Assembly: GCF_018143015.1 (NCBI RefSeq)
Contig: NC_054741.1
Coordinates: 65,260,697 to 65,324,696, forward strand
From: Lytechinus variegatus
Taxonomy: Eukaryota > Echinodermata > Echinoidea > Temnopleuroida > Toxopneustidae
Length of the DNA: 64,000 nucleotides
Direction: 5' to 3'
Shown here: one piece after another, positions 1,083 to 55,150 of the stretch
How the letters are laid out: every line of letters begins with the position of its first letter
How positions within the stretch are numbered: the first letter of the stretch is position 1
The notes under the pieces: generated by a model
The model's input: only the letters and a program-made list of their open reading frames with translations
Database searches by the model: none
What the model was told of the DNA's origin: nothing
Made by a program: the position numbers and the translations under genes

Positions 1083-1116
1083 GAAAACAATATTCTCATT
1101 TTATCTCACGTGCTTT

Positions 1117-1705: not shown

Positions 1706-2916
1706 AGTTTCATGAGTCATGCGAGTGGGATAGATATAAGTCACTTTTTTTTCTTCGTTAAAATTTGCCCTTTCCCCTGTGCCTCCAGTTTCCAGATCGC
1801 TCCACCTCCCTTGAAAAAAAAAAATATAAAGTTGCAACAAAACGAGCAAATGAGGATTAAACAGTTGATATATATAATCTATTTTTATCAAAAAATCCTA
1901 TCACTCTGGTTATCATGGTTATAGTGGTGAGATCCCGAAATGTATGGGATGATGACTATAAGGAATAAAGGTGCATTATAAAATGAATTAGCCACAGATC
2001 CGATGGAAATAGCACAACGATGCCGAAATGAAAAGGAAAAGATTGCAGAAATAAAAGGAAAGATTTTTAAATAATTGTCAAAACTATAGGCCCTATATAG
2101 GGGATGATATTCAGCATTCAAAATTCGATACAAATTTTCATTATTTTTTTTTAAATAATATGTTGACTTATGCGATAACCCTCCTTTAAAAATCATTTGT
2201 AATGATACGGCAAATATTGCTGTCCTAGATAACGGCACTAATTCGATCAATGTCATATTATTGTACATTGTTCCGCTCCACAACCCCATGTAGAGGATGT
2301 TTTGATTTGAATGAAACTCATTTGAATCAACCATGATGCAACAGATCTGCATTAACGGTAAGAGGTTGCTCATGTAATCACTTCATATTCCTTTTCACAA
2401 ATTTCACGCATAAACATTTGGGCCCGTGTATTCTGAAGTCGGCTTTTAATTTAAACTCAGGTTTAAAGTTGTGGTATGGATAGCCAACTTTTATAAAAAT
2501 CAATAACAGTATAGAGATATCATATTTCAGCTCATCTGGCTCTCAAATCATTCATAATTGCCTAGGAGGTAAAAATAGATGATTGTCTTCACCAGTAAAC
2601 ATAAGACACATACAACTTAATAAAAATGTTGACACTTTTGGCTTCCCATATTTAAGCACAGAGTTAGACCATGGTCTAGTTAAACCTGACTTCAGAAAAC
2701 GGGCCTTGATGATTAAAAAATTACCGTTTCTTTTTTTTAATTGTGATGGAGGTAATTGTATATGCCACCCCCTCGAGTATGGCGAGGGATATCCCCCCCC
2801 CGGAAGGATTTACGCCGTCGCGTTTTCTCTTTCTCTCTATGCTCTTTGAAGATGTGACCATTTCCTTTTTGTATGTATATAAGCATTATAAGCATTAATA
2901 ATTAGTTTACCATTAG
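1706..2916. other. Intergenic, no gene seen
   Basis: AT-rich sequence with only short ORFs lacking family motifs. I recognise nothing here. Confidence 0.4.
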
Positions 2917-4709: not shown

Positions 4710-4860
4710 ATGATTAGGCGTCCGGGAAATTGCTATACCATCATTTTACGCACATATCTTTAGGCCCCTTTATAGGCCTAAATATAAAGTTGAAAGCCTA
4801 TAATGGATTTTCGCACATATCGCCTTATTATTTGTCATGCCTACGAGTGCAAGTTTAATT

Positions 4861-22564: not shown

Positions 22565-22815
22565 TTATAATAATAATAATAATAACGTTTTATTTACCCA
22601 GGGTAGCCACTTCAGTTAAGAAACTGCTCTACCAGCAGACCCTGCATAACATATTATGATATTATTACCCTTCTCCAATCTAAATGCTGAGCGCCAAGCA
22701 AGAAGGCAGAAGGTCCCGTTTTTATAAGTCCTTAGTATGACTCGCCGAGGATCGAACCCACGGCCTCCCGTTCATGAGGCGGACGCTCTACCATTGAGCC
22801 ACCATGCCCGGTTAA
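22565..22815 (-). mobile_element. tRNA-derived SINE on minus strand
   Basis: The minus strand reads CATGGTGGCTCAATGG (A box), then GTGGGTTCGATCCTCGG (B box at 22749-22758), and ends in a TTATTATTATTA tail. The tRNA-like head resembles a real tRNA, but the attached body and tail mark it as a SINE. Confidence 0.75.
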
Positions 22816-23298: not shown

Positions 23299-26200
23299 AT
23301 GAAGATTTTTATTCTTCTTGCTCTGGCTACTGCTGCTGCAGCCGTGCGATATGATGGGTGAGTAATGTATTACTTTGTTTTTTTTTATATTATGATTGAG
23401 AAGGGATTTTTGTTTCTTTCATATTCATCACGTTCATGAAGGTACAGCTTTTTGCTGTAAAAATAAATGAATGAAATGTAATAATTCAAAGACAATGAAT
23501 CATGAATGCATCAGTGAGAAGAACAAAAAATTAAAATAAAGATGACGATGATGTTGATAATTCTGATGGTGAGGATGATGAAGAATATTATAGGGATGGT
23601 AGTGGCAGGGTGGAAATGATAAACAGAAACAAAAAAACTATCCCAAATAAAACAATAAAACCAATAATTTAAAGAATTAAGCATAAATGCATCAATAATA
23701 AGAAGAAAATAATGATGAAGATTGTGATGGCAAGTTTGATGATGAAGATTACGGGGGCGAAGAAGATTATGTCGGTAAGTAAAATGTTTGAAAGTTCTTT
23801 TTAAACAATGCATAATTATGTGCATTACTAATAATTAGAAAACGATAAAAGATGATGATGGTGATAAAGGCTTCATTATTATTTCGTTAAAACAATTAAC
23901 TATAAACTAATATTCATTATATATGCTTACTAGAAAAACTATAGGTGTAATGGTAAACAAACAATGTAGAGCCAACGGGCGACTAAATACCTCGTATATA
24001 CAGTAGGTCCCGAGGAAAGATGTATAAAGTAAAATTGTCTATTTTGCCAAATTACTGGGAATATAACCCTGATGAATGAATAAATGTTCTCACATCTCAT
24101 CCATTGGCTTGGATTTATGTTGGGGCTTTAAGGTCCAGTCACAAATTTTTTTTTAGAAAACTCTTTGAAATATGAAAATAAATTTTCATTTAATTTTCAT
24201 CATTTTTGTGTCCTTCACTTTCCTAGATATCAGGCACTTCGTGTGGAGCCGAGGGATGAACTACAGCTTGACTTTCTTAACAACCTGAAAAATGAACTTG
24301 ACGGAAGGGTAAGGAGGATTTGGAACAGGATTTCATCGTGGAATACCATGGTGGGAACACTGTGTACCGACTGTTGAATACACATTACATGGACACAATT
24401 ATTTTCATACACACAGTGTACTGACTGAATTTCTAAAATTTGGATTCATTTATCAATTGTTATATATAATATAAATGAAGGTTACATGGAATTAAGATGA
24501 ATATGAACACTGCTGTGAATTCGAATACAATAATAGGATAATGTTTGGAGATGTATTAAGCGCTATTAAACGGCTTATGTTACATTCATTACGCGTGATC
24601 ATGGTGATTAACAAAGTGAAAATATGATACGAAGTCACCTGACCACGAATACCCAAGTTGAAATGAAAGGGATTGTCCAGGCTGGAGTTATTAATATCTC
24701 AATAAATATAGTAAAATTTACAAAGCAAAATGCTGAAAAAATTGATCGAAATTGGATAACAATTAACAAAGTTATTGAATTTTAAAGATTATTCCGGTGA
24801 AACAGTTCCAGGCATGTCTTTACGAATATTCGTTAGGTGGACTAGTGATGTCACATTCCCACTTATTCTTTTGTATTTTATTATATAAAATTAGGTTCAT
24901 TCAAAATTTTTATACCAAGAATAAAAACAATTGGAATTATTGCCGCAACCTATTAAATCATAATGGAGACATTTAAATGTTTTCATGTAATAACATACGA
25001 AAAAGGAAAGTGGGGATATGACATCATCAGCCCACCTAATGAATACTCATGCTGATGCGCATAATAACTGTTTTCACAAAATATTGATAAACTTTAAAAT
25101 TCAATAACTACGTCATTTGTGTCCGATTTTGATGAAATTTTCAGCATTTTGCTCAGTGAATTTTACTTTATTTATTTAGATATAAATATTTTCAGCCCGG
25201 ACCATTCCTTTTAACTGTTTAAGAAGAAATGAAGTTACTTTCCTCCCCCCTCTCTCTCCATATGTATATTTCTGAACTCGGCCGCGAACCACCAAAACGA
25301 CCTATATCGTTCAAGTTGCATATAGGAGGATCTTTTCATTTAATTAAGAAGTAGTAGTTATGGTGCGGTGGTAAATTCATTTCCCTCATCTTCCCTTAAT
25401 AGATATCATTCTGGTCTCAACCCCGAACCACAAAGCGACCGACCGACATCCTTGTCCAACCTCGCTTCCAGGATGACATCAAGGAATTGTTGGATGCTAA
25501 ACAGATTAAATATTCTGTCATGATCGACGATGTCCAGTCCATCATTGACTCCCAGGTCCGCTCTGAAGATGAAGTCGAGATCGGTGCGGATTTCATTTAC
25601 AGCCTATATCACACATATGCCGAGGTGAGTTTGGTAAAATCGAGCGAAAGATAGATATTCACACAGATGATGAAATATATCAGAACGAGAAAAAAAGAGT
25701 GAATTCAAATTTGGTTAACCCCAGTGTTCGCCAATTTTTTTCTTAAAGTTAAACAATAATCATGTAGCTATTTCAGAGGGCAACTAATTATAAAAATGTG
25801 TTTGAGTTATATCTTAACAGACATGACAAAGAAGGCTGTGTTATCTCGGGCCCATTGCAGAAAGAATTGCGATCAAAGGCAACTCAAGAAATCTTGCGCA
25901 ACTTGAGTTTCAGCCAATAAAGCACCCGTATTCGGGGGAGCGTTTCATTAAAGGACGTGTCGGGCGTTTATCCGACAAGTCCTGTTTTATCCGACATTAC
26001 TATAGTAACAGTGCTTCTCAACCAATCAGAATCCAGGAAAGTTGTCAGATCTGACAACTTGTCGGACGAAAATATTGAAGAAATGCCCACCAGGACTTGC
26101 GCTTGATATTTTGACTGCGTTTTTAAAAACGCAACTCTTTCTGCACCAGGCCCCAGAAGTGAAATAATGTATACGATGATGTGTGGAATAATGTGAACAT

Positions 26201-29200
26201 TGGTATATTTGACGTGCCATTTGTTAGTTCATGTTTTCATAGTGTTATACTTATAATGTCGAGACAACCGTCCATTTTACGGATGTCATGCTTATAGTGT
26301 TTAGCTAGTTAAATCTTGAAATATATTTATTATTTTCTTTCACTCATTACATAGATCCAAGCTTGGGTTTTTGATATTGCAGATGAATACAGCTCTATTG
26401 CTCAGCAATTCCAGATCGCAACATCTTACCATGGTCGTGCTATCAACGCTCTGAAGGTTTGAAATCGTCCACAAGCTCTCTCTGAATTATATACATTTCA
26501 ATTAGTTTAAAGATGTAAAGAACTATGATTATATGACTCTATATATAATCGTTGCAAACCTTGGACAGTGAACCAGGGTCATTTGAGATTGAACAAGGTG
26601 TATTTCATGACTTAGAAACTCATTGGCCATACGTATACAGGGATCGAAGGCGGGGTAAGTTGTGACACTCTTTGCATTTTGCATGTAAAGGTGGTGTCAC
26701 ACCTTGGCGTTTTAGACAGCGTATGCCCGACGTATCAAAATTTCTCTAAAACGTCGGCATACGCTGAACTTTGATTTTTTTTTCAACTCTGGGCGTATAC
26801 TTAGCGTATTCATAACGAGTTGGACGTATACATAACGTATTAGTAACTTATATCGAACGATTCGTTAACTTATAAGTAACGTATTCCAACGAATGCTTAG
26901 CGTTTTGCTGGCGTACACAACTTATGCCCTACGATAGCCTAACTTACGCATAGCGCGCGGCAGCGTATCGCTGACGTACGAACACGTGTCGTAGCCTATA
27001 TTATAAAAAGGCTGCCGCTCGACTATTCAAATCATAAGCGCACGATACATCACCGTATCAACACCACCGCCATGCCGAAGAAAACTCCTGTGAACCCCAC
27101 CTTTATATACCAATTCCTATAAACGTTGTCAATACGCCATTATACGGTAGCTGTAAGTTATAAACACGTTCAGTAAGTTTTGTGGTCGTCCGGAGCACGT
27201 CTTCATACGTCTTCATACGTCAATATACGTTGGAGTTAAGTTACACATACGTTCAAAGCACGTTACTCATAGGTTAGAAGTAAGTTTTAGGGTACGCTGG
27301 ACATTATCTCGACGTACATCGACTTATGAGTAACTTACGAATAACGTGTGTCAACGTGTATCAACGATCGCGTAACTTGCCTACAACTTATGGCCCGCGT
27401 ATGCGGGACGTATAAGCCATACGCTGGCATACGTCGAAAAATTTTGTGCTTGCACAAAATTTTTCGACAACCTCGCCGTATGACGACGTATACCAGCGTG
27501 TTTTAGCGTACTCTTAACGTATGCAAAACTTACCCGTAACGTATTCGACGTACGCCAGCGTATTCGCCAAATTCCTCATACGTCGGGCATACGCTGTCTA
27601 AAACGCCAATGTGTGACAGCGCCTTTAGAATTGATATGAATAATAATAATGTAGACAGAAATAAGTACCTTGCCTTTAAATTTGATTCTTGGGAAATATT
27701 TTTCACCTTTATATAACTTTCTACCCCCACACTGAAAGTCATTGTGACCTTTGGAAAAAATCGATGTCAAATGGCTCAACTTGCCCCATCTCTGTGGTAA
27801 GTTGTGTCACCTTCTGGGGTAATTTGAGCCACAAAAACTATGTACAAAATGTATGCGGGAAGAACCAGCATGCAATTTTTTATTTAAAGTCTTTTCAAAT
27901 ACTAGCATCCTCTACAAGTAAAAGAACTGTCATGTGGTTTTGCTCCTTTCTGCCTGCATATCAATGGCTTTTAAAAGATTGTTGTTGTTTTTATTGTACA
28001 TTACCATAAGAATTACCATGGCTCAACTTGCCCCATGTTCTCTGGTTCAACTTACCCCAGTCCTAACTTCATGCGATATTTTCACATCAGCACATTTCTT
28101 CTGCATCCATCATGTAAAAGACTATGACAAGAATGAGAATCCATACCTGGACTAACAATATTGTTCTTATTTCTTTATCATATTTAAAGACATGTATGGG
28201 TAAAAAGCACTAATGTATTTTACATGCACCCTTTTTTACTTTTTTGGCTGAAATTCGTATTTCCCTCGAAAAAAGTACTTCTTGTTTCAAAGTTGAAAGC
28301 AATGGGGGTGGGGTTAAGGGTTATACAGTGCGTATCAAAAAAAAGTTTACACTTAGAAAAAATCCTGTAAAATTATATATTTGTAATATCCTGACAATTT
28401 TCGCACATTTTAGCATTGGTACAGATCCATTTAAGCAAATGACGATATAACTGTCGAAAAATATTTCCGCTTGAGTGAGCACCACTTTGTTTTGAAAAGT
28501 TGGTGAAAAATGATTTGCGCAGAACTTTGAAATAGTTATGCGAATAAAAGTAGACCTTAATCATGAAGAACACGTGGAAATTAGCAAGTAAAATTGATAT
28601 GAAGATATCTTTTACCTTTTTAAACTTGTTTCCTTTCCCAAAACACTTCGAAGAGTGCATTGCGCCCCCCTCCCACTCCCCCACACACCGAGTCCATCGT
28701 GACGATATTTGCTTTACACTGAGCTGTGATTTACACGAAATGGCTTAGGCTTCATTTTCATTTTGTTAATCATTGCCAAGCTTGGAAAAAGTGTGGAGAA
28801 ACAAGTATTAAATGAAAATTAAATGTAAACCAACTTTAAATGATAAAAACTTAGTGAAAAATGCTGGAGATGGCTGATATAAACTTTTGTTCAGATTCAG
28901 TTATGTCCTCAGATCCAGCTGGCACAAAATGGGTAAAGGTTGCGCTTACTAAGTGTTAAAATTTCAAATTTGGGCGACAAAATTGTTACAAAATGCTTGA
29001 ATGTATCCGTTTTATTTCAATTGGCTAAAAGTGCTAGGGAAATTTATGAGAAATGCTTCGCAGGGTAAGTTTGATTTCGCCCTTTCCCCTTGACACAGCG
29101 TGAAAACAAGCATTTCTGCGCAAACAGATTTCTGCGAGCTTTACAAAAATGGACAGTGCTCACTCAAGTGTAACATTCTGTCAAAACTTTTACTTTCATT

Positions 29201-32200
29201 GGATAGATGAGACCCAAACCAATAATTATACGTGAAAAAAATTACCCACATGTTGTATATTTTTTAATTCCCAGGGCTTTTTCAAAGTGTAAACTTTTTT
29301 TTGATACGCACTGTATAATAGGTCATATACATGACACCACCGCAATGTGTCTCTTTCTCTTTCCCCGTCCATTCTATTCTTTGTCAAGTTCTTCGATCAT
29401 TCCAGTGTTGTCTTTTTACCTGATTATATTTCAATTTATCGTATCTCACGTATCCTTATTTTTCTAGATCAGTACAGGAGGTGGTGGCACAAAGAAAGCA
29501 GTCTACTGGCAGGGAGGCATCCACGCACGTGAATGGATCTCACCAGCTACAGTCATGTTTATCACCAAGTCTGTAAGAATCCTCCTATTATACAACTTAC
29601 GATGCTATATCTTCTAAAACTCTCACACACTTTAAAAAGGTTTACCAAATTGTTTGGGAAAAGGGAATACTCGTGCATTTTACTTAATGTACACCTGTAC
29701 CCAACTATACACAGGCAAGTCAGTCAACTTTTACTCAATAAAGGGTGATTTTCTCAACATCGTTTTACATTGCATACCCAATGGTAAAGTTAATAATTTA
29801 TCTTGATAATGAAGGGCCACATGAGTACACTATGGCTGTATAATGCATGGTTATGCTCGCAAAAAAGTTCTACTCTCTCTCTGAGGGACATGGAAATTAG
29901 GGGCAGGGGTTCCAATACTGATTTGTAATCGTGTAAGTTTACAAAAACATTGTTTCTATTTTTAATAATTCTTCTGAGATTAGTTACAAATATTACGTGT
30001 AATTTATAAAATAATTCCATGTATTAGTCATTATTATAAGCTATTGATAAAATCATAAGAATATAACTTTGATAATGAAACATTTTGTCTACTCGGTGCA
30101 GCTTCTGGAGAGGTACGGCGTGGACAACGATGTGACAGAAATCCTAGATACTTTCGATTTTTACATTGTACCCTCACTCAACGTCGATGGCTATTATCAT
30201 TCTTGGAACTTTGTAAGTAATATATAGATCATTCTTGCAATTCTGTAAGGAAAGACAATGCTTGCAACTTTACTACAAGTAAAAGAGTAACCAAATCTAC
30301 TTCACAATTCACCTTACTGCTTGTATGAATATGTTTTTACTATTTGTACTACGAGGATCAAGTTAACAATTTCACCATCAAACTATTTAAATGAGAAAAT
30401 TACATGTTACTGCAGAAAATGTAGGCCTATTGTAATAATATGCAAATTGTGTGTTTGTGTATGAATTTTAGGCAGAATTTGTGTTTAGATTTAGGATTAA
30501 TGATTATAATATTTCATTTACTTACGTATGTGGTGAATTTTGTAAAACGTTAAGAAACGTATACGAGGGAACGAAGCAAACGAGCTGAACTCATGGACAA
30601 TTTGGGGCAAATTCTAATTAACGTTCAAGGACCAGGTTATAGATTTTATATCAAAAATACGAGAAAAAATAGTTTTGGCAAGATCCAGAGGAAAATAATT
30701 ATAAGATATATATCAATAGTTCATCACTACTAGTAAGACTGATATGTGATGAAACATATTCATAACGATTTCATATCCTAGGACCGACTGTGGAGGAAGA
30801 CTCGATCGGTTAACAGGGGTAATGGATGCCGACAGTGGCGTACCGTGGGTCACGGCATTGGGGGGGCACCAGCAAAAATTTTGAGTCACCAAGTGAGCGC
30901 GCGAAGCGCGCTCAGTTGCTAATTATGCTGACCTAATAGAGATATTTTAAGGACAGTGTCATTAAACGGATATGTATGTCACTGATCACATAATGCGAGC
31001 GCGAAGCGCGAGCTGAATTTTTTTATATTCAGACCTAAAAGGGGAAATTATAAGCAAATTTTTTTATCATGATATGTACCTGTTTCGCTAAACAAACAAT
31101 GCGAGCGCGAAGCGCGAGCTGAAATTTTTGTATATATTAATCCCAATCAGACATTTTAAGGACTACATATTTTAGGAATCTATTAAGAGTATACATATCT
31201 CACCATAGTATTCTAATGCGAGTGCCAAGCGCTTGCTGATTTTGTTAGAATTATATGCATCCAAACACATAAAGCAATTGTCATTGTAATCATGATTAAA
31301 ATGCGCATCTTACTAATCAAATATTGCGAGCGCGAAGCGAGCTAAAAATTTAGGAAATTCAGACCTGAAGAGGGACATTTTAAGGCTTCTTTCGTTGGAA
31401 TTCACGACGACCCTACGTATTTCATTAACCAAATGAAGCGAGCGCGAAGCGCGAGCTGAAATTTTTGTATATATTGACCCCAAACATGGATATTTTAAGG
31501 ACTATTTTTAAAAGAATCCATTAAGAGTACACATATCTCACCATAGTTATCTAATGCGAGTGCCAAGCGCATGCTGATTTTGTTAGAATTACACCTAAAG
31601 ACATACTTTTTGTAGTCATTGTAGTCATGATTATCATACGCATCTCACTATTCAAATATTGCGAGCTCGAGATTTTGGAAATTCACACCTGAAGAGGGGC
31701 ATTCTAAGGCTTGTTTGTAGGAATTCACGTAGACCACTAACCAAATGATGCGAGCGCAAGCTGAAATCTTTGATATTCAGATTTTAAAAAATGGACATTT
31801 TAAGGACTGATTTTAGGAAATCATGAAGAGCAGACATATTATCTCACTAATCCACTAATGCGAACGTAAGCACGGACGGGAAATGTTTTATATTAAGACC
31901 TTAAAATGATATGTCACTACATAAAACAATAATAATTCGAAGTGCGTGGAGATATATTTCGTGTATATTGACTTGAAAACGGGAGGTTTTAGTACAACAG
32001 GATTATAATATCTCGTAAAACAGACAATGCGAGTATCAGGAACAATGGAGACATAGGCCCTGAGCATATTATGTTTCATAAAGTTATATATTTTTTATTT
32101 TTATGTAATATAACATAACATAATTATAATATAATATAACATAATTAACAATAATTTCTTCCTTCCCACTATGTTTCTTTCACTTTCTCCCTCTTTTTCT

Positions 32201-34964
32201 CTTTTTCCCTTTTTTTTCTGGCTAGCCGATTGGGGGGGCACGTGCCCCCCCATGCCCCCCCGTAGTTACGCCACTGGATGCCGAGGTGTCGATCCTAACA
32301 GGAACTACGAATATGAATGGGGAGGTATGTAGCTGTTCCTAATATTGTGGTGAAAAACTCAATAGCCAACAATTACAACTGTATTTGTGATATCAAAAAT
32401 GCAGTTGTAATTGTTGGCTTACTGAAATTGAAAATCTCTGTATATATCTTCAAATAAAAAAAAGTGTATGCAAACATAAGAAGTAATAGTAACTAATTCA
32501 ATATTTATAATATTAACACTATAACACTAGATTGGTCATATGAACTATTCTGTACAAAGCAGTTTGCTAATGTATAGGCCTACATTCTATTTGATTTACT
32601 TATTTATTTATTAGTATCAATAATTGACATAAAAGCTCACATAGTTTCTTAGAATCATGTGCTATATATTATGCCTGGTATTCTAACAAACCACTAAAAC
32701 AGTTGTAAGGGGGGGGGGGGGTCAACAAAAAGAACAAAGAATAAACTATTGAATCTTACAGATTTTTTAAATACGATTTTAAGCAGTAGTATACCGATAT
32801 CCCATTGATTCGATTTTCCTTAGCGGTAGCATGGATCCTTATTCATTTTGTTTCCTGCATGTATAGGTGAGGGTGCAAACCCCAATCCCTGCACAGAAAC
32901 CTACCCTGGACCGAACGCATTCTCTGAACGCGAGATAGCCGAAACAACATCTTTCCTTCTCAACGCCAACCAGGAGTTCGTTTGCTTCATCGACTTCCAC
33001 AGTTACTCTCAGCTCTGGCTTGCTCCCTGGTCGTACACGGCCAGGGCACGCCTCCCAGAGGACTTGGAGGATCACGTAAGGAAAAGGGAGATAATTGGAT
33101 GGAGAGAGCGAGGGAGAGAGAAGGGGGAGGGTGCTTGGGGTGTGTGTATAACTATGTAAGGGTGTTTGAGTTGTAAGTGTGTGTGCGAAAGAGAAAGAGA
33201 GGTATGTCTTGGTCGGGGGGATGTGTGTGGGATGGTGTGAGTGTGTGAGGGCGTGTGTGAAAGAGAGGGAGAAGAGAGAGAGATTGTGTGCGTGCGATAG
33301 ATATTGCATGGAGCTATTACAGAGAGCTTTATGGTATATGCGTCGGGGGGGGGGGAGGTGAGCGTGTGTATGTGTGAGGAAAAGATAAGTGTGTGGGTGG
33401 GTGGGTGAGTGTGTGTGTTGATCGGCCGAACTGGTGACGATGATGGTGGGTGAGATGGTGGAGATGTTGTTTGTGAACGAAGACGGCGATGCTGCTGGTC
33501 TTGATGATGACTGTAGCAAGTCAACGATCACGTAAAATAAAGAAATTCCACAACATCTTGAAGTAGTTGTAAATGTATATAAGGATGACGACGAGGATGA
33601 TACAGCTTTTCCTACCACCATGCGGATAAGGTCTTTGAATGGACGACCGTGCGAAATAATAAAATATAATTTATATTTGGGCATTATACAGTGATAGCGA
33701 AATCAATGTAAAATGCATTTCAGTGGCTGCAACGTTAGGTCTTGATCGATAAAAACTCCATGTACCCTTTTTACTAACATCTTTAATCATATTTTCTATT
33801 TTTCTTTTTTTAGTTTGACGCTGGAATGAAGGCTATCACCGCTTTAGAGAGTGTGTACAATACAGACTACCTCTATGGACCCTCCGCCTTGACTCTCTGT
33901 AAGTTAACAAATTTGTTATTGAAATATGAATATTTTTATTTTGGTCCTGGATTGCGAGGAGAAAATTTAGGCAGTGAAACAATCATCATCATCATTATCT
34001 CGACCGGCATTGCAGCTATTAGCCAATAAGGCAATATTTAGGGGTCATTTTGATTAATCTTTCGTATACAAATTTTTAAAGTTTTATCATGATTGGTATA
34101 TACAATATTCACATTCTTTTACATACATATGTAAATAATTGAAATGTAAATGACAAATAAGATATATCAGTCTATCAGTCTATCTATCGACGGATTTATA
34201 AGAAAGTAAATAAATGCATAAACAAAATGAATAAATAGATAGATAGATAGATAAATAAACAAATGATTGAAAGCCCTATGAAAGACCACTAGTCATGATT
34301 GAACGATCTCCCCTGCTAAATGATTCCAATATATAGCCGTTTGTCAGTCCTGGGTTGTCCTTTAAGTTCAACTCTACCAGAGGCCTCTAATTATTTACAT
34401 GATTTAGAGAACCTGTTGTTACGTGCATTTCAGCTGCGTTTCATGGAATACAATACATTCCCGATCGGTAGATATTTCCCTCACCTGGGTTGTGTGTACC
34501 ACAATGTGGATAAATTCTTTGTGAAGAAAATAATCACAGAAAGTAAGGTCTGAATCTACGACCCTCTGACGACGGTCTGGGGCCCGTTGCAGAAAGAGTT
34601 GCAATCAAACGCAACTCTAAAAATCATGCGCAACTTGATTTTCAACCAATCAACAGCGCGCATTTTTGACTTGCAATTGATTTTTTGACTTGCGTTTAAA
34701 CGCAACTCTTTGTGCAACGGGCCCCAGAACAGATAAACCTTGACGCCTCCGTTCTTTCTGGATTGTGTCGCAGACGCCGCCTCAGGATGCAGTGTGGATT
34801 GGGGTTACGCCAAACTGGGAGCCAAGTACTCGTACGTGGTCGAGCTGAGAGATATGGGATCATACGGGTTTCTCCTTCCCTCTGATCAGATCATCCCAAC
34901 CGGAGAGGAGACACTTGAAGGAGTCCTGGCACTCTGTAAACACATGGTGGAAGAATACAAGTAG
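23299..34964 (+). CDS. Secreted zinc carboxypeptidase copy A (family M14A), exon 7 interrupted by a transposon
   Basis: Exons: 23299-23357, 24227-24308, 25403-25624, 26355-26456, 29468-29572, 30102-30212, 30782-30832 plus 32285-32324 (one exon split by an insertion), 32867-33075, 33814-33898, 34774-34964. Without the insertion they encode 418 residues, the usual length for pancreatic-type pro-carboxypeptidases. Residues about 1-16 are a hydrophobic signal peptide (MKIFILLALATAAAA). The propeptide follows to about residue 100-105, with a candidate tryptic activation site after Arg100. Catalytic features by homology to bovine CPA: zinc ligands His174 and Glu177 (HARE) and His302 (DFHSYSQ); Arg232 (WRKTRS); Asn249-Arg250 (DPNRN); Tyr356; catalytic Glu379 (VELRD). 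The position-255 equivalent is Val363 (CSVDW), which suggests a hydrophobic, A-type pocket. Role: removal of C-terminal residues from peptides in the gut or extracellular space (family knowledge). All ten exons are otherwise open. Reading straight into the insertion gives about 30 foreign codons and then a stop, so the gene is disrupted unless the insert is spliced out or polymorphic. Confidence 0.92.
24666..25211. mobile_element. MITE, AAAGGGATTGTCCAGGCTG family
   Basis: Inverted arms AAAGGGATTGTCCAGGCTG and CAGCCCGGACCATTCCTTTT, about 546 bp, with TATCTCAATAAATA and AGTAAAATTYAC sub-blocks at both ends. Other copies: 43075-43656 and a truncated one at 58027. It lies in intron 2 of copy A. 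Confidence 0.7.
25845..26156. mobile_element. GGGCCCRTTGCAG MITE carrying a nested MITE
   Basis: The outer ends are CTCGGGCCCATTGCAGAAAG and CTTTCTGCACCAGGCCCCAG. Inside at about 25934-26094 sits a copy of the GTCGGA palindromic MITE (compare 924-1082). An uninterrupted outer copy is at 34577-34727. Confidence 0.7.
26688..27625. mobile_element. Foldback element rich in ACGTAT motifs, TA duplication
   Basis: The ends AAGGTGGTGTCACACC and, inverted, AAGGCGCTGTCACACA continue as a ~47-bp TIR (GGCGTTTTAGACAGCGTATG). TA flanks at 26686-26687 and 27626-27627, and the empty site is seen in the copy at 15039-15895. The interior is a dense array of CGTATAC/ACGTAT words with a perfect hairpin (AAAATTTTGTGC/GCACAAAATTTT) near 27436-27466. 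Confidence 0.8.
28324..29315. mobile_element. Tc1/mariner-like MITE, ~992 bp
   Basis: TACAGTGCGTATCAAAAAAA at the left and its inverted copy ending CGCACTGTA at the right, flanked by TA (28322-28323 and 29316-29317). The ends resemble Tc1/mariner termini. There is no transposase. A truncated inverted relative is at about 52293-53076. Confidence 0.75.
30782..32324 (+). other. Exon 7 of carboxypeptidase A, split by a TIR element
   Basis: In copy B this exon is an uninterrupted 91 bp (51385-51475). Here the first 51 bp (30782-30832) end in GATGCCGA. The same 8 bp recur at 32277-32284, right after the inserted element, and the remaining 40 bp complete the exon to the GTATGT donor. The break lies between the codons for the Arg127-equivalent and the Asn144/Arg145-equivalents. 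Confidence 0.9.
30833..32276. mobile_element. hAT-like element inserted in carboxypeptidase A exon 7
   Basis: It starts CAGTGGCGTACC and ends GTAGTTACGCCACTG, with exact 8-bp duplications GATGCCGA (30825-30832 and 32277-32284). The 1,444-bp interior holds nine GCGAGYGC-type units (30994, 31101, 31218, 31326, 31438, 31556, 31661, 31750, 31860). No transposase ORF. A second, inverted copy begins at about 63228. Confidence 0.9.
33095..33470. repeat. GT/GA-rich low-complexity tract
   Basis: GTGTGTG, GAGAGAGAG and GGGTGGGTGGGT runs in intron 8 of copy A. The long minus-strand ORF across it is a composition artefact. Confidence 0.7.
34577..34727. mobile_element. Palindromic MITE, GGGGCCCGTTGCAG family
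   Basis: Ends CTGGGGCCCGTTGCAGAAAG and CTTTGTGCAACGGGCCCCAG. The inner arms GAGTTGC...CAAACGCAACTC also pair. 151 bp, in intron 9 of copy A. Confidence 0.75.
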
Positions 34965-39258: not shown

Positions 39259-39454
39259 AAGATAATTGTATACCCATCCTGTTCATGGATATATTGCTTT
39301 GAATGTCCCGTTTTTATGATTATTTAAGTATAAAACTTTAAGTTCGCGGTCCGCGCTCGAATCATTTGATTGTTGAGGTATATATCGTGTTAGCGAGTCA
39401 CTGCACCGTTATAGCAAATTTTCACTAGTTCTCCCTCGCTTCCATAAAGATCAT

Positions 39455-41494
39455 AGGCGGATCCAGGGGGGGCCCGAGGGGCCCGGGCCCCCCCCCCCCT
39501 ATTGGCGGAGCAAAAAAAGGAAAAAAGAAAGGAAAAAAAGAAAAGGAAGGGAAAAGAGAGGAGAAAAGAAGAAAGGCAAACGTAAGAGGAGGAACATGAT
39601 TAAATAAAATAACATGAGGGGAAGACTTTGAAAATAATTTTTTTTTAAATCTATTTGTTAGGATACAAAATTTTCGCTCGCGCTTCGCGCCTTATTGTCT
39701 TTTAGGGTATTTGCATATCTTGCTTAATATGGAGCTTGAAATATCAAACTTTGAAGTCAATATACAACATATTTCAGCTGGGAAATTGAACTTTCATTAT
39801 TTTGTTTGATTTACAAATTGATTTAAAAAAAAGTGCTCTGTAAAAATGTCTGTGTTATGGTCTGAACACTATCATTTTCTGCTTGCGCTGCGTGCTCGCA
39901 AAATTTGATTTTTCAGGTACCTATTATTTTCCTGTATTCCATAAAGTTCTCAAAAAGTTCCCTATTCAGGTCAGATTGTTAAAACGTATCAGCTAGCGCC
40001 GCACGCTAGCATTTTGATTAGTCGGTTATGTATATCCCAATATTCTAAATCAAACTACTTTGATGACAGTTTATCAAAAAATTCGGCTCGCGATTTCTGC
40101 TCGCATTGATACATATAATCCCTCTTATGCATAATTACAAAGTGCTTTAAATGTCCAGTTTTCAGGCCATAATATTAACAGATTTCGCGCTCTCATGCTT
40201 AGGAAGAGAAATAGGAAGATGGTCATCATTTTCATATGATGACATAATGCCCTCATAGAATGTCCCGGTCCTATGTAAAAACTCAAAGTAATAATAATAA
40301 AATACATCAGCTCTTTTTTAACTGTGATCCATCACAATTCACAATTTTCCCACAAAGTGTTTGCATTACAGAGTTAAAATTCACCCTTTGTTAGATCGGA
40401 ATATCATATATTTTTAGCTCGCGCTTTGCTCTCGCTTTATTGATTTTCATGATAAGAAAGTTACTTAGAATACCCAAATTCTAGGTCGAAATCTAAAACA
40501 CACGTTAATTCAGATACGCAGATTGTTCTCTATTTAAATCATCCAGTTTCAGATCACAATATCAAAAAGTGTCTGCTCGCGGATAAATAACTTATCCTTT
40601 TCATGATAAAACATAAATAGTGTGTCCAGAATTTTTCCGCTCGCGCTTCACGCTCGCATCAATAAAATACTTAGAGTCCCTCCAAGATTACAAAAAGTGC
40701 TTAGCATTTCATTATTCAGGTAAAAAAGGTCAAAATTTTTCAGCTCGCGCTTCGCGCTCGCAATATTTGAATGTTGAAATATGTAAAGTCTTCATGGCTA
40801 AATGCAAGCAGTCCATAACAGGTATAATTTTGAGCAGTTCAAAACGTATACACAAAATTTCTGCTCGCGCTCTGCGCTCGCATTATTAATGTAAGGAAGA
40901 TCCCCACTTACTAATCCTTTTCATGATTTACAATAGGCCTGCTAATTGAATAGAGTGTCTTGTTTAGCAGGTCTAAATCTCAAAACTTTTTGCTCACGCT
41001 TCGTGCTCGCATGTTTAATTATTCCTTTGGTAAAAATGTCAAAAAATTTCGGCTCGCGCTTCGCGCTCGCATTATTTGATTTTTTAAAATGTGTAACGTC
41101 TTCATGGCTAACTGCAAGCAAGTATCTAACAGTACTTTTTCCATCACTTCATTTCTGCTCACTCTTTACGTTCGTAGTAATTATTAACTTGCATACACAT
41201 CTTTTTTTTCAGGAAAACAAACATTTCCCAGAATGTTCAAAATTTTAGGAAAAAGTACATAAGATTTCCAAAAAAATTTAGCTCACGCTTTGCGCTCGCA
41301 TTATACAAATAAGGGTTATGGTATTATACATTTATGTTTCATAAGAATAAATCTAAAAAGTGACCATTTAGGACTACCCCTTCAAAGAAACAAAAAAATC
41401 CCGGCAAAAATCATATTCGAGCGGCCGATCGGGGAAAATATGGCTGAAAAAAATTCCGGGCCCCCCCTATTGGCGAAGGCTGGATCCGCCCCTG
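39455..41494. mobile_element. hAT-like element with GCTCGCGCTTCGCGCTCGC units
   Basis: AGGCGGATCCAGG at the left and GGATCCGCCCCTG at the right, with AAGATCAT on both sides (39447-39454 and 41495-41502). The GC-rich unit recurs about 12 times. Both subterminal regions match the element at 2917-4709 in inverse orientation. 2,040 bp, no transposase. Confidence 0.8.
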
Positions 41495-45879: not shown

Positions 45880-48800
45880 ATGAAGACTTTAATTCTTCTA
45901 GCGCTGGTTGCTGTGGCTTCTGCAGTACGTTATGACGGGTGAGTGTTGGTAAACATTATACAGGTAGAAATGTATAAACAAATACACTCTTAAAAACGTT
46001 GGGCAACATACTGCCTACACAACAATTGGTTAAAACTTAATCCCATTCTGGGTATAGTTATAAACCAATGTGTGTTTTGAGTGAAAACTGCGCAGTATTG
46101 GTTGAAAACTATCCAGGGCTGGATATTTTTTTAACCAATTGTTGTGTGGACAGTATGTTGCCCAACATTTTAAGAGTATACAAGTATATCATACACTGTA
46201 AACGCGCTTTTTAAAATGTTAAGCACGTTGTTAAAGCCCATCACTCTAACAGCTATTGTTAAAAACTGTTAAACAACTGTTTAAACAACTGTATAACTTT
46301 TTAAATTGTTTAAAAAGTTTTTACAATTACAAAAAAGTTTAAACAACTTTTTGTTAGAGTGACAGGCTTACACAATGTGTGCTATTTTTTTTTTACTGCG
46401 TATGGGCGTTTTTGCCGATAGACCTTTGTCAAAAAACTTAAAGTATGCTCAGTTTCCCCCAATTTTTTTTTAAATCTTGTCATATTTATCTAAATTTTCT
46501 TCAGATACCAGGCACTTCGAGTTGAGCCAGTGAATGAACTTCAGCTGGACTTTCTCAATACATTAAAGAATGAACTGGAGGGAAAGGTAGGCAAGCACTC
46601 CCACCAATCAACATGTCACTTTGGTATAATGGAAATAAGTGACAGAAAACTGTTGTTCAAAAATAACAAGTGCTTTACAATGGTTGGTTCATTTATCATA
46701 TACAGGCAAACCAGGTGTGCTAAATGTGGGAAGGGTGACACTATGAATTGCTAAAACACACTCCAAGAAAAAATATGTTAAACTTTGATTCTCTGATATC
46801 ATTATGTATGGTGCCGACCTATGCAGAAGCACCATAAGGAAACAAGAGCACCTTTAAACTGTCAACTTCGATTTTTTTTTTAGATCAGTGTTTCATTTGA
46901 ACACCCTTACTGGTGTATATTTTGACTGCTTTACTGAAAGGCACGAATTTTAACCTATTTTTCTTAGGGTCCATAGGGGTGCAAAATCTATTGAAAAAAA
47001 CGAACACGTGATCAACGGGCGGGTTCTTTCTGCAAATTTTCCTCCGTTTTAATGTTGCTAAAGTGAAAACCATGCCTAATAAATCTATTAATCATAGTTG
47101 ATTAATTTAAAACTTAATGCACCTGCAAATTCCCTCAAATCTGTTGCAGGTTTTACATTTTCATGCTGAATAACTTAAAAGCTTCACACAAAGTCATATA
47201 GGTGAGCTTATCTTAATCGTAGGCGCTGTCTACATCACACTTCCCGCTCATGATGACGGTCTGTGTTCACATTTTATGTTTAATTGTTGATTTCTGTACA
47301 AAGAAAGAAATTAGTTTTGCATTTATTTTCCTGGATGAAAGCTGTAACTGTATATGTGTTTATTTCTGTATTACTATGTTATCATGTATCATGATCTCCA
47401 AAATAATTTCAAATAAACAAACCAATACACAATGGATATAACTATTTCATTGCTTTATACACACTCATTCAAACACACACAAGCACCTCAGCACAATTTA
47501 CACAATGTTATCTGAAGTCTGGTGCAACTTGATTATACACTCTTTTTGGGCAACATACTGTCCATACAACAATTGATTAAAACTTTAACCAATCCTGGGT
47601 CGTTTTAAACCAATAATATGTGCTTTGAGTTAAAATACTCAGTATTGGTTGAAAACTACCAAGCGTTGGATAATTTTGTTTAACCAATTGTTGTGTGGAC
47701 AGTATGTTGCCGAACATATACCCTAACTTTTGGTAGGCAATGTAATGTAAATCTCCACATCTAGACGAACAAATTTTCATCACATTTTTCACTCAAAGCA
47801 ACATTCTTGGAGTGGTAAATACAATAGTTGTGTAAAATATAAACAATTTTTGTTTGCACTTATTACTAACCATAATCTTTTCCCAGAATTAGACCGAGTT
47901 CGGAATACTGGCACTAACGCTTACTTGAAATTGCTACATAGATGACATCAACGGAAGCATTCTTCTGTCATTTCCTTTTATCCATTCATTCATTAATTCA
48001 TTAACCTTGATGTCCATTTATAGCCGAAGTAATACATATATTTATAATATTGCAATTTTAATTAAAAAAGGAACGTGTAGAGGTAATGCATCGATTTCCT
48101 CTGTATTCCCCTAGATATCATTTTGGTCTCAACCCCGAACCACCAAGCGACCAACCGACATCCTTGTTCAACCTCGCTTCCAGGATGATATCAAGGAACT
48201 GTTGGATGCTAAACAGATCAAATATTCTGTCATGATCGACGATGTCCAGTCCGTCATCGACTCCCAGGTCCGCACCGAAGACGATGTCAAGATTGCCGCC
48301 GATTTCGACTACAGTGTGTACCACACATACGATGAGGTAACGTCTTAAGTCTACTTCAAGAAAATCAGGATGATTTATACATCGACGAGCGTATAGGCCT
48401 TTACCTAAAACAAACTTTGAAAGGAAGACATAATAAGCATGATTACTTTGTTCGATAATATTAATATTAGATCTTATTTACGATCACATGTTAATCCAAT
48501 ATTAGTGACATTTTCTTCATTTGAAAATGTTACATTAACATGTAAACTATTAGATGCTAAGCATGTTAATATTCATTTATTTTCCATCTGCAGAGCAGAA
48601 TGTATAAGTCAATATCTTTCTAGAACACATTTTGATAACAATCATGCTATTTCAGCATTTGGTAACTTTTCCAGATTCTTATTGTAAATCGTTTGATGGT
48701 GGATATCTATGAATTGTGCCATGTCACTGGGAAAATATAATGCGCGGTCATCAACATGTCAGATCTTAAGTATTTGACTACTGATTTACTTTCATGTAAG

Positions 48801-51800
48801 AACCCTAACACATAGAATGTCAGGTCCACGTGGCAAATTCGTCATCACTATAATTATGTATAGGCCTCTGTATCATATTCCACATTCATGAGAAACATTT
48901 TATTACATTTATAGATTACTCGATTTCAATTTTATGTGTTTTTTTCTTTACAATTTTCATTACTAGATCCAAGCTTGGGTATTTGAGATTACTGCTGCTC
49001 ACAGCGCCATTGCTCAACAATTCCAGATCGCTACTTCGACTGAAGGTCGCGCCATCAATGCCGTAAAGGTTGGAAATTACAATGTATATCTTTCTAGTAA
49101 AAAGATAGTGATCAAGATGATGTAAAGAATGATAACTAATACAATAAAAAGGAGTTATCATTTTCTTTTGCCTAACCAATATATATGAGTCAATAATCAT
49201 CTGTATCCTCTTCTGTCCACCTTTCCAGTTCTAGGCCCATCTCCTCTCCTCGTTCTTTTCCTACTCTTTCAGTTTCACTCCTTCAAACCCTCTACACACC
49301 TATTTATTGTATTTCCCGTTCTGTCGTTTTGTAATATGCCGACTCTCCTTTTTTGTATTTTACCTTTTTTTTAAATATATACACGTAAATTAGTTACGTG
49401 CTATATATTTCTGGTTACACTTCGTAATTCCGAAACACGTAAATTGCCTATACCTCAATGTTCATTAATCCGAAAACGTAAAAGGGTTCGTTAATCCGAA
49501 CATTTGTGGCGTTATTCCGAAGGTTCGATAATCCGAAAACGAAATAAGGTTCGATGTTCCGAAAGTTCGTTAGTCCGAAAACGAAATAAGATTCGCTGTT
49601 CCGAAGGTTCGTTAATCCGAAAACGAAATAAGGTTCGTTAATCATTTCGTTTTCGGACTAACGAACCTCATTTCTTTTTCGGATTAAAGAACCTTCGGAA
49701 TTACGAATCTCACTTTGTTTTTGGACTAACGAACCTTCGGAATTACGAACCTCACTTCATTTTCGGACTAACGAACCTTCGGAATTACGAACCTTCGGAA
49801 ATACGAACCTTCGGAATAAAGAACCTTCGGAATAACGAATGTATGCGTATATTTCTTGATGTTGTAGATGCGTTTTTCTCATTCCATTGAGTGGCTTATA
49901 CCGTATCAAAATAACATTTAATTAAGCAGTGAAATACAATCATAATTGTTTTACCTTTCTAATATACAACATTTTCACTTTTATAGATCAGTACTGGAGG
50001 TATTGGTACCAAGAAGGCAGTCTACTGGCAGGGAGGTATCCATGCTCGTGAGTGGGTGTCACCTGCAACCGTCATGTTCATCACTAAATCTGTAAGCACT
50101 CTATGTACCTTCCCACATGGTGTAATTGTGCACCTTTAGTGGTGCACAATGTAGCTGTCTGAACACTCTGATGCAAAATTTCTAAATTAATGCAATTTAA
50201 TCGCAATTGGGTTCGGAGTATCCCACCTGCTAAATGTAAATTTGAGCCTTTTAATCTCTAAATATATGAAAATGAAAACGCTAAAACAATTATAGCTTTT
50301 TCTCAAATACGACAAAATATAGTTGATGAGCTCGTATGACAGTGATATGTAAATTACTGGATGTTGTGTCTTACTTTGATACTTGTACAACATGTAGTTT
50401 ATGCGCATCGGAATACCAAAATGTCATAAATTTAGTTAAAGTGACCAATCATGTTTAGTGTTAGATTGTGTACTTTTTTCAAACAACTGTTCAGTACCCA
50501 GTCATACTTATGAATACCTACTGATCGTATCTTGTTCTTGAAAATAATATCAAATAAAATTAAGGTGCAAAGAATTTTTTAAAATCCTTTCAGTTCGAAA
50601 AACCCATCATCGGGGGGGGGGGGATAATGGAGAATGATATGCTTCCATTTTGTTATAGTACGCTCTTTGTAACGCGATATTCTATGAAATATTCACCAAC
50701 ACAGCTTCTCGAAAACTATGGTGTGGACAGCGATGTCACTGAGATCCTTGATGCTTTCGACTTTTACATCGTACCATCACTCAACGTCGACGGCTACTCT
50801 TATACCTGGACTCGTGTAAGAATAAATTATGAAAATAACAAGAATATGAGATATATTAGATGAAAGTGTGGTAGCTTCTTAATGTAGCCGCCCTAACCCA
50901 TTTTCTTCACTGAAAAAAGGCCATCATAATCATGTATACATCTTTATCGTTTTCTTCTCCGTTGCAGGTATGATATCGAAGAACAGATAATGGAAGGCTT
51001 ATGTCTTCACAAGTTCGTAGCATTCTGTTGTTCATTTTCGTAAAATAAATTTACCCTCATCAAGATTCCTTTATGAAGTAGACTAGATGTCAATGTGAAA
51101 TACGGCAAAAAGTTACAGATCCTCGAATACAATATTTTAAAAGTAGATCTGTGAATAAAACGGCATCTCGTCCACTCTACCTGTGGATCGTCTCGACCCA
51201 AGAGGTCAATCACACGCACTGATCAGTGATCACACGTTTACCCCACTCCCGCCCCTACTGCCGCCTGTTCTATTGGAGGTGATGATAAGTAATTGTCTAG
51301 TTCTATGAGTAAATGAACAATATAAATATAATGTAGATTTATGGAATTTAACAGTGTTTAAAACATGTTTTCATGACGCTCTAGGACCGTATGTGGAGAA
51401 AGACACGATCAGTTAACAGTGGTAGTGCATGCCGAGGAGTAGACCCTAACAGGAACTACGAGTATGAATGGGGAGGTACGTATGTTTTATGAAAAGGTGC
51501 CTATTTTTGTAAATATATAGAAAACAATAGCCTTCAATGATCCAAATAATTTACAATGAATATACTCATAATAACTATAGTAAAAGTAGTGTATAATTAT
51601 ATAATTATTAAGTGTTTTGTGTGTACTTGCTTTGACATACACCTTTGTTCTGACGACAGATGGGAGGAAACTAGAGAGAGTGATAGAGAGACAAGGATAG
51701 ATAAAGAGGGAGATATAGAGAAAGGACCCCTGAAACCTTAATAAAAAAGATTGTACCGTGATCCGTTGTAAACCAAGCGCAATTCGCTTCCCAGTATCAC

Positions 51801-54545
51801 ATAACTTGGTCCTGCTTATAATACCGTCTTGATTTCAGGCGAGGGTGCCAGCACCAGTGCCTGCTCAGACACCTACCGTGGCCCAAGCGCCTTCTCTGAG
51901 CCAGAGGTTGCTGGAACAACTTCTTTCCTTCTCAACGCCAACCAGGAGTTCGTTTGCTTCATCGACTTCCACAGTTACTCTCAGCTCTGGCTCGCTCCGT
52001 GGTCGTTCACCGCCAGGGCCATCCTGCCTATGGACAAGGATGATCATGTAAGAAAAAAAGAGGCTTAGGCCTGTGCTCTGAATTCCATTTCAACTTTGCT
52101 CATAGACTAACTTAGTTCTGATTTCAAAACCGATGTAAGTTACCAGTTGTGGTACCACTGACTACTGTAAAGTGATACTCCTGGATTAATTTGAACGGAT
52201 AGAGTCAAATCACACTAATAAAACCCTAAAGTACTCATCTAACTCGGACAAGGCATAACAAAGTAATGGCTTTTTAAATTGGACATTATTTCGGTGAAAA
52301 AAAGTAAAAAAAATTTTTTGACAGAATCTTACAGTTGAGTGAGCACTGTCAATTTTTGTAAAGCTCGCAGAAATCGGTTTGTAGAAATACTCTTTTTCAC
52401 TCTGTGTCAAGGAAAAAGGCGAAAACAAACTGACCGTGCCCTGCATTCCTGTGGCATTTTTAAATAAAACAGATACACATTTTGTTACCATCCAATTAAC
52501 AATTTAACCCTATAGGTAAGCACAATCTTTACTTTTTTGTGCCAGCTGGATCTGACGATATGACTGGATGTAAATAAAAGTTAATTTCAAGACATCTCCA
52601 GCATTCTTTCACAAAATATTTATTATTTAAAGTAGGATTACATTTCAAACATCATTTAATACTTGTTTGTCAACACTTATCCCAAGCTTGACAATGATAA
52701 ACAAAACGAAAATCAAGCCTACGCCATTTCATGTGAATTAAAGCAGATATTATCTCGATGGCCTCGGCGTGTAGGGAGGGGGAGGTGGCGCAATGGCGCT
52801 CTATGAATTGTTTTGGGCGAGGAAACAAGTTAAAAGGTGAAAGATATCTTCAAATCAATTTTCCTAGCTAAAGTCCATGTTTTCTTCATGATAAATATCT
52901 ACCTTTATTTAAATCATTTATCACGAACTTTTCAAAAGTATCCGGTGCTCACGCAAGCGGGAAGAATTTTTTTTTTCATTTGCTTAAAGAGACCTGTACC
53001 AATGTTTAAATGTGGAAAAAGATTCATGATATTACAAATATATAATTTTACAGGATAATTTTTTATACGCACTGTATATATCTATATATCTATGTATTAG
53101 CTCAAATATAATAAACAAAAAGGGTTATTGGCTGAGAATGGTTAGGAGTTTTGCAACAGGATTAGACAATCACAATTCTCATAAGCTTTTATGAAATTCC
53201 TGAAATCAAACAATATCAGCTGTGTCAGAAACTAGACTAGTTTATCATTAACAATGGATAAAGATATAATCCGGTCGAATAGTTTGCATTAAGAAGTTTG
53301 TATACTAATAAGGAAATTGAAACGGTGATCCTGATTGAATTGATGACAATTATCCCAATTCAAAAGTATTCACATTATCATCATCATTAAATCAGTTTTA
53401 TCATCTTATTTACAGGACGAGGCTGCTGCCAAAGCTGTAAACGCTCTTGCAAGTGTACATGGTACCGATTACATATATGGCCCTTCCGCAAGAACCCTTT
53501 GTAAGTATCAAAATTGACAGGGCCCTTTGAACGATTTTTTTAATAGGGGATCTTTAAGAAAAAAAAATTGACAAGCACAATAAAAGGGTTTCCACTCCGA
53601 AGTCAAAATGAAGTTGATTTCGCAGCACCCACAGACAAATAAATCTTAAGCACCACCGCTTCCCGGGATGCCATGGGCATGATAATAGGCTGTCACATCA
53701 GGGCCCCGTTTTACAAAGAGCTACTATTGATCTAATCAATCATAACTCCATTAGTGTCATAATTTTTTTTCTACAGGGAATTTGCAAACTTTCCTTTGTT
53801 GATAAAGGGCTGCACATCAAATTGACAAGAAAACGATACCTTTATGAAAAACATCATACCTAGAATTTTTTTTTAGCAAACATGCATTTTAAATGTGGGC
53901 ATTAATGGCTTTCCATAGTTAAGATTGATCAGATCAATCGCAACTCCTTGTAAGACGGGGCCCTGAACATTGAATCAGCATGATACCGACTTTCGTAGGT
54001 TGTGGAAAGGCATTGTCTTTTTATCCCACTTCTTGATCAAAAATTGCCTATTGGTAACAACGCAAACTGTTCTTCTTAAGAAATCAATACTTGATATTTT
54101 GAGTTATGAAAGTATACGAGTGAAATGCTTGGTATAAAGATATTTGCTTGGAGGAGAAAGCGATCGGCCAGTAAGTTGGCATACGCTGGCTGAACCATCC
54201 AGGTGAGTTTTTCATGCAGATGATTTTCGAAAGTTGCGAATAACTTGCAAATAATCGCACGATTGGTGCTGGCATTTTCTTGTGTTAAAGATGGCTGTAT
54301 ATATGTGTTGAAGCTGACTTAGCATCTAAGACCAGATCATGTTCCAGCCGTGTGTTAAGTCGTTTATATCTTCGTGAATTTTATATCATTGTCACCATTC
54401 TGATCATTATAATATTTGGTTGCAGTGTCGCAATTTGATCCCATTCATAATTTTCATCTATTCCGAAAAACGCAACATGATTTTATTTAAAGGGAAATTA
54501 CCTTTTAACTAGCATTATGATATAATAGTTGTAGTAGTAGTAGTA

Positions 54546-54579
<34 letters not shown>

Positions 54580-55150
54580 CAGTAGTATAATTAGTAGTCG
54601 TAGTAATAGTATAAGAGAAGTCGAAGTGGTAATAATTGATGATAGTGTGGTGGTAAACTAGTAATGGTGATGGTTGTAGGTAGTATAGTTGCAGCAATTA
54701 TATAGGATTATATCAATATAATATGCTAATGTTTAAATGTGATTATGGAACAGTGTATGCATGTTTAGCCTACAAATTTGCATATCACACACACAACACA
54801 CTCACAACCAAATAAAGGTTGGCTAACAAGTGAGAGGTCAAAACAATTACAGTTTCATTGTGAAATGAATGAAACTGATCCAAGTGATAGTCAAATGACA
54901 GGAGGCCAAAAGTATGACGCTGAACCCCTCCCCTCTTTCCTTATTTGAAACGTGCACAGACGCCGCATCTGGATGCAGCGAAGATTGGGGCTACGTCACT
55001 CTTGGAGCAAAGTACTCTTACGTTGTGGAGCTGAGAGATACTGGAAGGTACGGTTTCCTTCTTCCAGCCAACCAGATCATACCAACTGGCGAAGAGACGT
55101 ATGAAGCTGTAAAGGCTCTATGCAAACACATGGTGGAGGAATACAAGTAG
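45880..55150 (+). CDS. Secreted zinc carboxypeptidase copy B (family M14A), intact
   Basis: Exons: 45880-45938, 46505-46586, 48115-48336, 48967-49068, 49987-50091, 50705-50815, 51385-51475, 51839-52047, 53416-53500, 54960-55150. Every exon has exactly the length and phase of copy A, giving a 418-residue precursor with no internal stop. It has a signal peptide ([15 protein letters not shown]), an activation propeptide to about residue 100-105, and then the catalytic domain. Zinc ligands are His174 and Glu177 (HARE) and His302 (DFHSYSQ). Arg232, Asn249-Arg250, Tyr356 and catalytic Glu379 are present, as are the cysteines matching the Cys138-Cys161 disulfide of bovine CPA (ACRG and ACSDTY). The position-255 equivalent is Glu363 (CSEDW), an acidic residue at the base of the S1' pocket. 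CPB has Asp there and binds C-terminal Lys/Arg, so a B-like preference is plausible but unproven. It lies head-to-tail about 11 kb after copy A and is likely a digestive zymogen. Confidence 0.95.
45983..46180. mobile_element. MITE, TACACTCTTAAAAACGTTGGG family
   Basis: TACACTCTTAAAAACGTTGG and, from the right, TATACTCTTAAAATGTTGG. GGGCAACATACTG lies in both arms, with AACCAATTGTTGTGTGG further in. In intron 1 of copy B. Confidence 0.75.
46192..46385. mobile_element. Palindromic MITE rich in GTTTAAACAAC
   Basis: CACTCTAACAG...TTGTTAGAGTGACAGG arms with repeated TGTTTAAACAACT inside. The exact ends are unclear. In intron 1 of copy B. Confidence 0.5.
47535..47720. mobile_element. MITE, second copy of the GGGCAACATACTG family
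   Basis: TACACTCTTTTTGGGCAAC at the left and GGACAGTATGTTGCCGAAC at the right, with the same AACCAATTGTTGTGTGG block as 45983-46180. In intron 2 of copy B. Confidence 0.7.
49430..49845. repeat. Foldback array of TTCGTTAATCCGAAAACG words
   Basis: The left half repeats AATCCGAAAACGAAATAAGG and TTCCGAAGGTTCG; the right half carries the inverse (CGGACTAACGAACCTTCGGA). The whole region can form a long hairpin. In intron 4 of copy B. Confidence 0.7.
52293..53076. mobile_element. Tc1/mariner-like MITE, truncated and inverted
   Basis: It ends TTTTTATACGCACTGTA next to TA and matches the reverse complement of 28324-29315 (GACAGAATSTTACASTTGAG, GTGAGCACTGTC). The left TIR is missing. In intron 8 of copy B. 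Confidence 0.65.
53699..53965. mobile_element. MITE, CAGGGCCCCGTTTTACAAAG family
   Basis: CAGGGCCCCGTTTTACAAAG and the inverted CTTGTAAGACGGGGCCCTG, with GATCTAATCAATC and GATTGATCAGATCAATC inside. In intron 9 of copy B. Confidence 0.7.
54528..54610. repeat. (GTA)n microsatellite
   Basis: About 25 near-perfect GTA/TAG triplets with a few interruptions, in intron 9 of copy B. Confidence 0.85.

Follow-up and report, generated by a model that had tools for sequence, protein, structure and literature searches.

Transposons with short inverted ends in and near genes

hAT elements typically have short terminal inverted repeats (TIRs) that begin with CAG, and the target site duplication (TSD) of the Ac type has the consensus nTnnnnAn. 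For the Buster type, the TSD consensus is nnnTAnnn (PMC3517528). Drosophila Mar, a Buster-type hAT MITE, has mostly imperfect TIRs and 8-bp TSDs, and some of its copies lie in or near genes (PMC3517528). In the silkworm, four families of Pegasus-like MITEs are each flanked by eight unfixed bases, and their TIRs include CAGTGGCGTACCTA, CAGTGGCGGATTA, and CAAGGGCGGATCCAG (PMC2997013).

DNA elements with TIRs and TSDs can also be present within exons, as in the case of Introners (PMC9860276). Some Introners carry a 3' splice site and take the 5' site from the TSD or from the adjoining exon, and some add codons. Introner families number from 5 to more than 2,000 similar copies in a genome, and their median lengths are 30-654 nt. 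Across animals and land plants, they are reported from just two taxonomic groups, each of them animal (PMC9860276). For Ds1 of maize, splice sites within the exonic element have been reported in earlier work, as cited in a later paper (PMC5432752).

A carboxypeptidase gene with an interrupted exon

The stretch of Lytechinus variegatus DNA analyzed here (64,000 nt, "the window") contains two neighboring copies of an animal-type M14 preprocarboxypeptidase gene, which have a common exon structure. Copy A (23299-34964, + strand) has ten coding exons: exons 1-6 (23299-23357, 24227-24308, 25403-25624, 26355-26456, 29468-29572, and 30102-30212), a split exon 7 (30782-32324), and exons 8-10 (32867-33075, 33814-33898, and 34774-34964). 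By splice sites and frame, the halves of exon 7 lie at 30782-30832 and 32285-32324. A TATAAA is present 71 nt ahead of the ATG, and an AATAAA is present 43 nt beyond the stop codon. Copy B (45880-55150, + strand) is an open, ten-exon paralogue of 418 aa with TATAAA at -80; AATAAA is not found within 400 nt of its stop codon.

When exon 7 is read as an empty site, copy A encodes a complete 418-aa proenzyme, a propeptide plus M14 domain according to Pfam (PF00246, 3.1e-88; PF02244, 3.5e-22), which aligns over nearly its full length with CPA4, CPA2, CPA1, and CPB (5 of 49 matched chains). In this alignment all of the M14A catalytic motifs are present. These comprise His69, Glu72, Arg127, Asn144, Arg145, His196, Tyr248, and Glu270, which we take to be the zinc ligands and substrate-binding residues. 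Alignment with the solved CPA/CPB chains places WRKTRS (Arg127) on the left half of exon 7 and DPNRN (Asn144/Arg145) on the right half, and so bears out the original prediction that the exon is split between these residues.

Two other features lie near the coding exons. A tRNA-like match at 22738-22808 (- strand; Rfam score 32.2, gathering threshold 29) lies 0.5 kb ahead of the ATG of copy A, and intron 7 contains a 28-bp inverted repeat that is 93% complementary and has no spacer (32364-32419), 40 bp past the interrupted exon.

Anatomy of the insertion

Exon 7 of copy A is interrupted by a 1,444-bp, non-autonomous TIR element (30833-32276) that has hAT-like/Pegasus-like ends and no recognizable coding sequence; the longest stop-to-stop frame overlapping it is only 69 aa. 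Perfect 10-bp TIRs, CAGTGGCGTA, are present at its left (30833-30842, + strand) and right (32267-32276, - strand) ends, and these are the only two exact matches to this sequence in the window. The left end starts CAGTGGCGTACCGTGGG, and the opposite end, read inward, starts CAGTGGCGTAACTACGG; past the 10 inverted bases both ends are G-rich, yet unequal. Degenerate repeats make up the interior, many of them at a spacing of 89-118 bp, and three contain an exact GCGAGCGCGAAGCGCGAGC.

As had been predicted, the element is flanked by a perfect 8-bp TSD, GATGCCGA, present at 30825-30832 and at 32277-32284. The number of these 8-mers alone proves nothing: there are three in the window, the third at position 2019, and at least three were also obtained in 7 of 100 shuffles. 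Rather, the weight lies in their exact placement against the element ends, since by simple arithmetic an 8-bp direct repeat adjoining a 10-bp inverted repeat is expected by chance at about 4^-18 per site pair. The joined exon halves (91 bp) match exon 7 of copy B (51385-51475) without a gap at 86.8% identity, and this gapless match fixes the empty site. Together, the perfect TIRs, the perfect TSD, and the empty exon confirm a TIR transposon within a coding exon: the anatomy is that of a cut-and-paste insertion into exon 7, with duplication of 8 bp of target.

The assignment of the element to the hAT superfamily, made from its ends and TSD length, is a provisional one because no transposase was seen. 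The 8 bp of GATGCCGA on both sides and the short TIR starting with CAG agree with the predicted hAT-like class. However, GATGCCGA fits neither the Buster nnnTAnnn nor the Ac-type nTnnnnAn, although one insertion cannot define a consensus.

Consequence for copy A

Being non-autonomous, the element would have been mobilized in trans by a transposase encoded elsewhere in the genome, and its entry into exon 7 duplicated 8 bp of target. When the frame of exon 7 is followed into the element, the first in-frame stop is a TAA at 30920-30922 (+ strand), after Arg127 and ahead of the equivalents of Asn144/Arg145, His196, Tyr248, and Glu270. Read-through would end here and, with the strongest splice sites out of frame, the transcript would contain a premature stop. 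An early stop that lies ahead of exon junctions triggers nonsense-mediated decay, an established mechanism. Since three exon junctions lie downstream in copy A, such decay of the message is likely; otherwise, translation would be expected to yield an inactive fragment that ends before Asn144/Arg145, His196, Tyr248, and Glu270. Copy B is still open. Skipping of exon 7 would shift the frame, since the intact exon is 91 bp. Within the element there is no AATAAA polyadenylation signal; ATTAAA is present twice, at 30961 and 31295. Thus, the allele in the assembly is very probably a transposon knock-out of copy A, most likely null, that is recent and may still segregate. The insertion itself is a clean but ordinary type of mutation.

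Can the insert be removed by splicing?

Alternatively, the element could be a new intron, in which a GT of the host exon (30819) and a TAG of the element (before 32226) are used together and an in-frame protein with its catalytic residues is made. All GT and AG dinucleotides of exon 7 with its insert were scored with consensus tables, a source that itself tempers this reading. On this scale the 18 real donors of copies A and B have a mean of 7.0 (range 3.1 to 12.2), and the 18 real acceptors have a mean of 5.5 (range -0.5 to 8.6). The exon plus insert contains 14 stop-free donor-acceptor pairs that keep the downstream frame. The best of these, which defines a hypothetical intron at 30819-32225 (+ strand; donor ACAGGG/gtaatg in the host exon, acceptor ctggctag/CCGATT in the element), combines a donor of 5.7 with an acceptor of 6.0 for a total of 11.7; thus, its donor is below and its acceptor above the mean of the real sites. 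Removal of this intron is predicted to change NRGNGCRG to NRADWGGTCPPMPPRSYATGCRG, adding 15 residues and one cysteine, which counts against the reading; the catalytic residues on either half of the exon are kept. In its favor, the element can be read from either end in the frame of the gene without an immediate stop, and Ds1 (PMC5432752) and Introners (PMC9860276) are precedents for exonic elements that supply splice sites; a spliced insert would come closest to an Introner.

Three controls of 300 sequences each were scored in the same way: dinucleotide shuffles, shuffles in which the 60 bp at either end were preserved, and random segments of the window. An equal or better in-frame pair was present in 18/300, 27/300, and 24/300 of these, respectively, so that the original suggestion of an insert removed by splicing gains no support above the chance level: a possible in-frame intron exists, yet 6-9% of controls match or beat it. 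The top-scoring pair regardless of frame is a different one, a hypothetical intron at 30893-32265 (+ strand; donor CACCAA/gtgagc, acceptor ccccgtag/TTACG) that is out of frame and scores 15.7 versus 11.7. It was matched by 138/300, 117/300, and 189/300 of the controls. The strength of this competing pair speaks against the new intron but counts for little on its own, because the in-frame pair was the strongest pair in 0/300 of each control as well. In the reverse orientation the element gives a weaker in-frame pair (4.7).

A C-rich tract followed by a TAG acceptor had been noticed at the right end of the element. This acceptor (before 32266) does exist and, at 7.22, outscores every other acceptor of the exon plus insert. 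However, its only partners in stop-free pairs that keep the frame are two poor donors, with scores of 0.7 and 0.4. The second acceptor (before 32226), absent from the original prediction, has a longer T-rich tract.

With 6%, 9%, and 8% of the controls equal and a stronger pair out of frame, removal by splicing was rejected as the main explanation, and we consider it unlikely that the element serves as an intron. If it did, copy A would encode an active carboxypeptidase, lengthened by 15 residues close to those that bind substrate. An intron and an insertion in the protein would then have arisen in a single step, seen while still within a population, and the locus would be a rare example among animals of a transposon that becomes an intron at once.

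Age of the insertion and constraint on copy A

The knock-out reading holds that the insertion is recent. Outside of the insertion, copy A is intact, as predicted: its remaining exons are open, with no stop, frameshift, or splice loss, and all of its introns are canonical (9/9 GT donors and 9/9 AG acceptors, 18 intron ends). Given this lack of other disabling changes, the 95% bound on neutral divergence since loss is 0.0116-0.0199 (about 1.2-2.0%), assuming neutrality since loss and indel:substitution ratios of 0.15 to 0.05. Divergence of this size is within the standing variation of highly diverse animals. Consequently, the insertion is probably recent relative to neutral decay, and because it is recent on this scale it may still be segregating.

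One part of the evidence speaks against a very young loss of constraint. In the catalytic domain, copy A is changed at 8/92 positions that are invariant in copy B and three reference enzymes, whereas copy B is changed at 4/88 otherwise invariant positions; thus, A departs twice as often. In relative-rate counts (positions at which only A equals the reference versus those at which only B does), CPA2 gave 7 vs 23 (chi2 8.53), the only lopsided one of the three; CPA4 gave 11 vs 17 (1.29) and CPB gave 9 vs 16 (1.96). Given the excess of conserved-site changes and the lopsided CPA2 rate, constraint on copy A could have relaxed before the insertion, and a mild relaxation ahead of it is possible. A more extreme form of this idea, that an ancient insertion has reached fixation and copy A has long been a pseudogene, draws on the same somewhat greater divergence at conserved sites. 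We regard it as very improbable, since it has to contend with perfect duplications and element ends, with the freedom of the other exons from stops, frameshifts, or splice loss, and with the 1.2-2.0% bound on neutral decay. That the join is an artefact of assembly or haplotype merging is scarcely credible, as the exact TSD/TIR anatomy and the gapless empty site are the mark of transposition rather than misassembly.

Overall, the two copies differ with a dN of 0.111 and a dS of 0.974 (exon 9 alone gave no computable dS), which indicates that the pair as a whole has been constrained. This suggests that copy A itself was constrained for most of its history, although the pairwise value averages both lineages.

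Within exon 8, A (32950-33020) and B (51922-51992) do not differ at all over 71 bp surrounding the His196 motif, while third positions elsewhere match in 231/396. None of 5000 codon shuffles reached this identity, although such shuffles ignore the clustering of conserved codons. The identical stretch resembles the product of gene conversion between the two copies.

The two enzymes also differ in exon 10 (A, 34774-34964; B, 54960-55150). At the equivalent of position 255, which is presumably the specificity position of carboxypeptidases, A has Val and B has Glu; in the reference enzymes this column contains Ile (CPA4 and CPA2) or Asp (CPB). Judged by these residues, A and B may cut different C-terminal residues and are not obviously redundant, so that losing A could remove one substrate class.

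Related elements

A diverged relative of the copy A element is present at 63225-64000 (- strand), where it is cut by the end of the window. The two longest aligned pieces are 76-77% identical, and the outermost bases of its right end are CAAAG where CACTG is expected.

A separate stretch at about 39455-41494 (- strand) has CAGGGGCGGATCCAG at one end and a shortened, similar end at the other (compare BmMITE-13 of the silkworm, PMC2997013). It is flanked by AAGATCAT at 39447 and 41495 (an 11-bp match, AAGATCATAGG), and is probably another element of the 8-bp-TSD type. The GCGAGCGCGAAGCGCGAGC motif is common to this stretch and to the element in copy A. A further stretch, at window positions 2917-4714, includes pieces akin to the 39.4-41.5 kb stretch and also carries GCGAGCGCGAAGCGCGAGC internally. 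Its presence in these stretches indicates that one internal repeat is common to elements with different ends.

Scanning viral contigs with the left-end pattern gave 2 loci; positions 1-3600 of one of them (L001) have the appearance of repetitive genes for structural proteins in which the pattern matches by chance. Among the matches listed in literature searches on this TIR, on echinoderm/hAT polymorphism, and on sea urchin non-autonomous hAT elements, the locus is unreported, and those listed for sea urchin carboxypeptidase duplication likewise contain nothing on it.

Comparison with known systems

Like Introners, the element described here is a TIR/TSD DNA element inserted in an exon. Unlike Introners, it is represented by one insertion whose predicted splicing is not above chance, and the relative in the window is only about 76% identical (PMC9860276). 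The resemblance to maize Ds/Ds1 is of the same kind: an exonic hAT element with potential donor and acceptor sites. However, the splice sites here are predicted ones, with the top-scoring pair out of frame, whereas those of Ds1 are reported in work cited by that paper (PMC5432752).

As a knock-out, the locus joins the clean examples in which a non-autonomous element has inactivated a duplicated enzyme, here a probably digestive one. In being non-autonomous with 8-bp TSDs, the element is like the Drosophila Buster-type hAT MITE Mar; it differs in that GATGCCGA departs from nnnTAnnn and no transposase relic is seen (PMC3517528). It also differs from the Pegasus-like BmMITE-15 of silkworm, which is 300 bp long, by its 1,444-bp length with internal degenerate repeats and by having only 10 bp common to both ends (PMC2997013). 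Nevertheless, like BmMITE-15 it is short and non-coding and has an 8-bp TSD without a fixed sequence, and the first 12 bases of the BmMITE-15 TIR (CAGTGGCGTACCTA) are identical to the left end here, CAGTGGCGTACC, a likeness of ends and TSD (PMC2997013).
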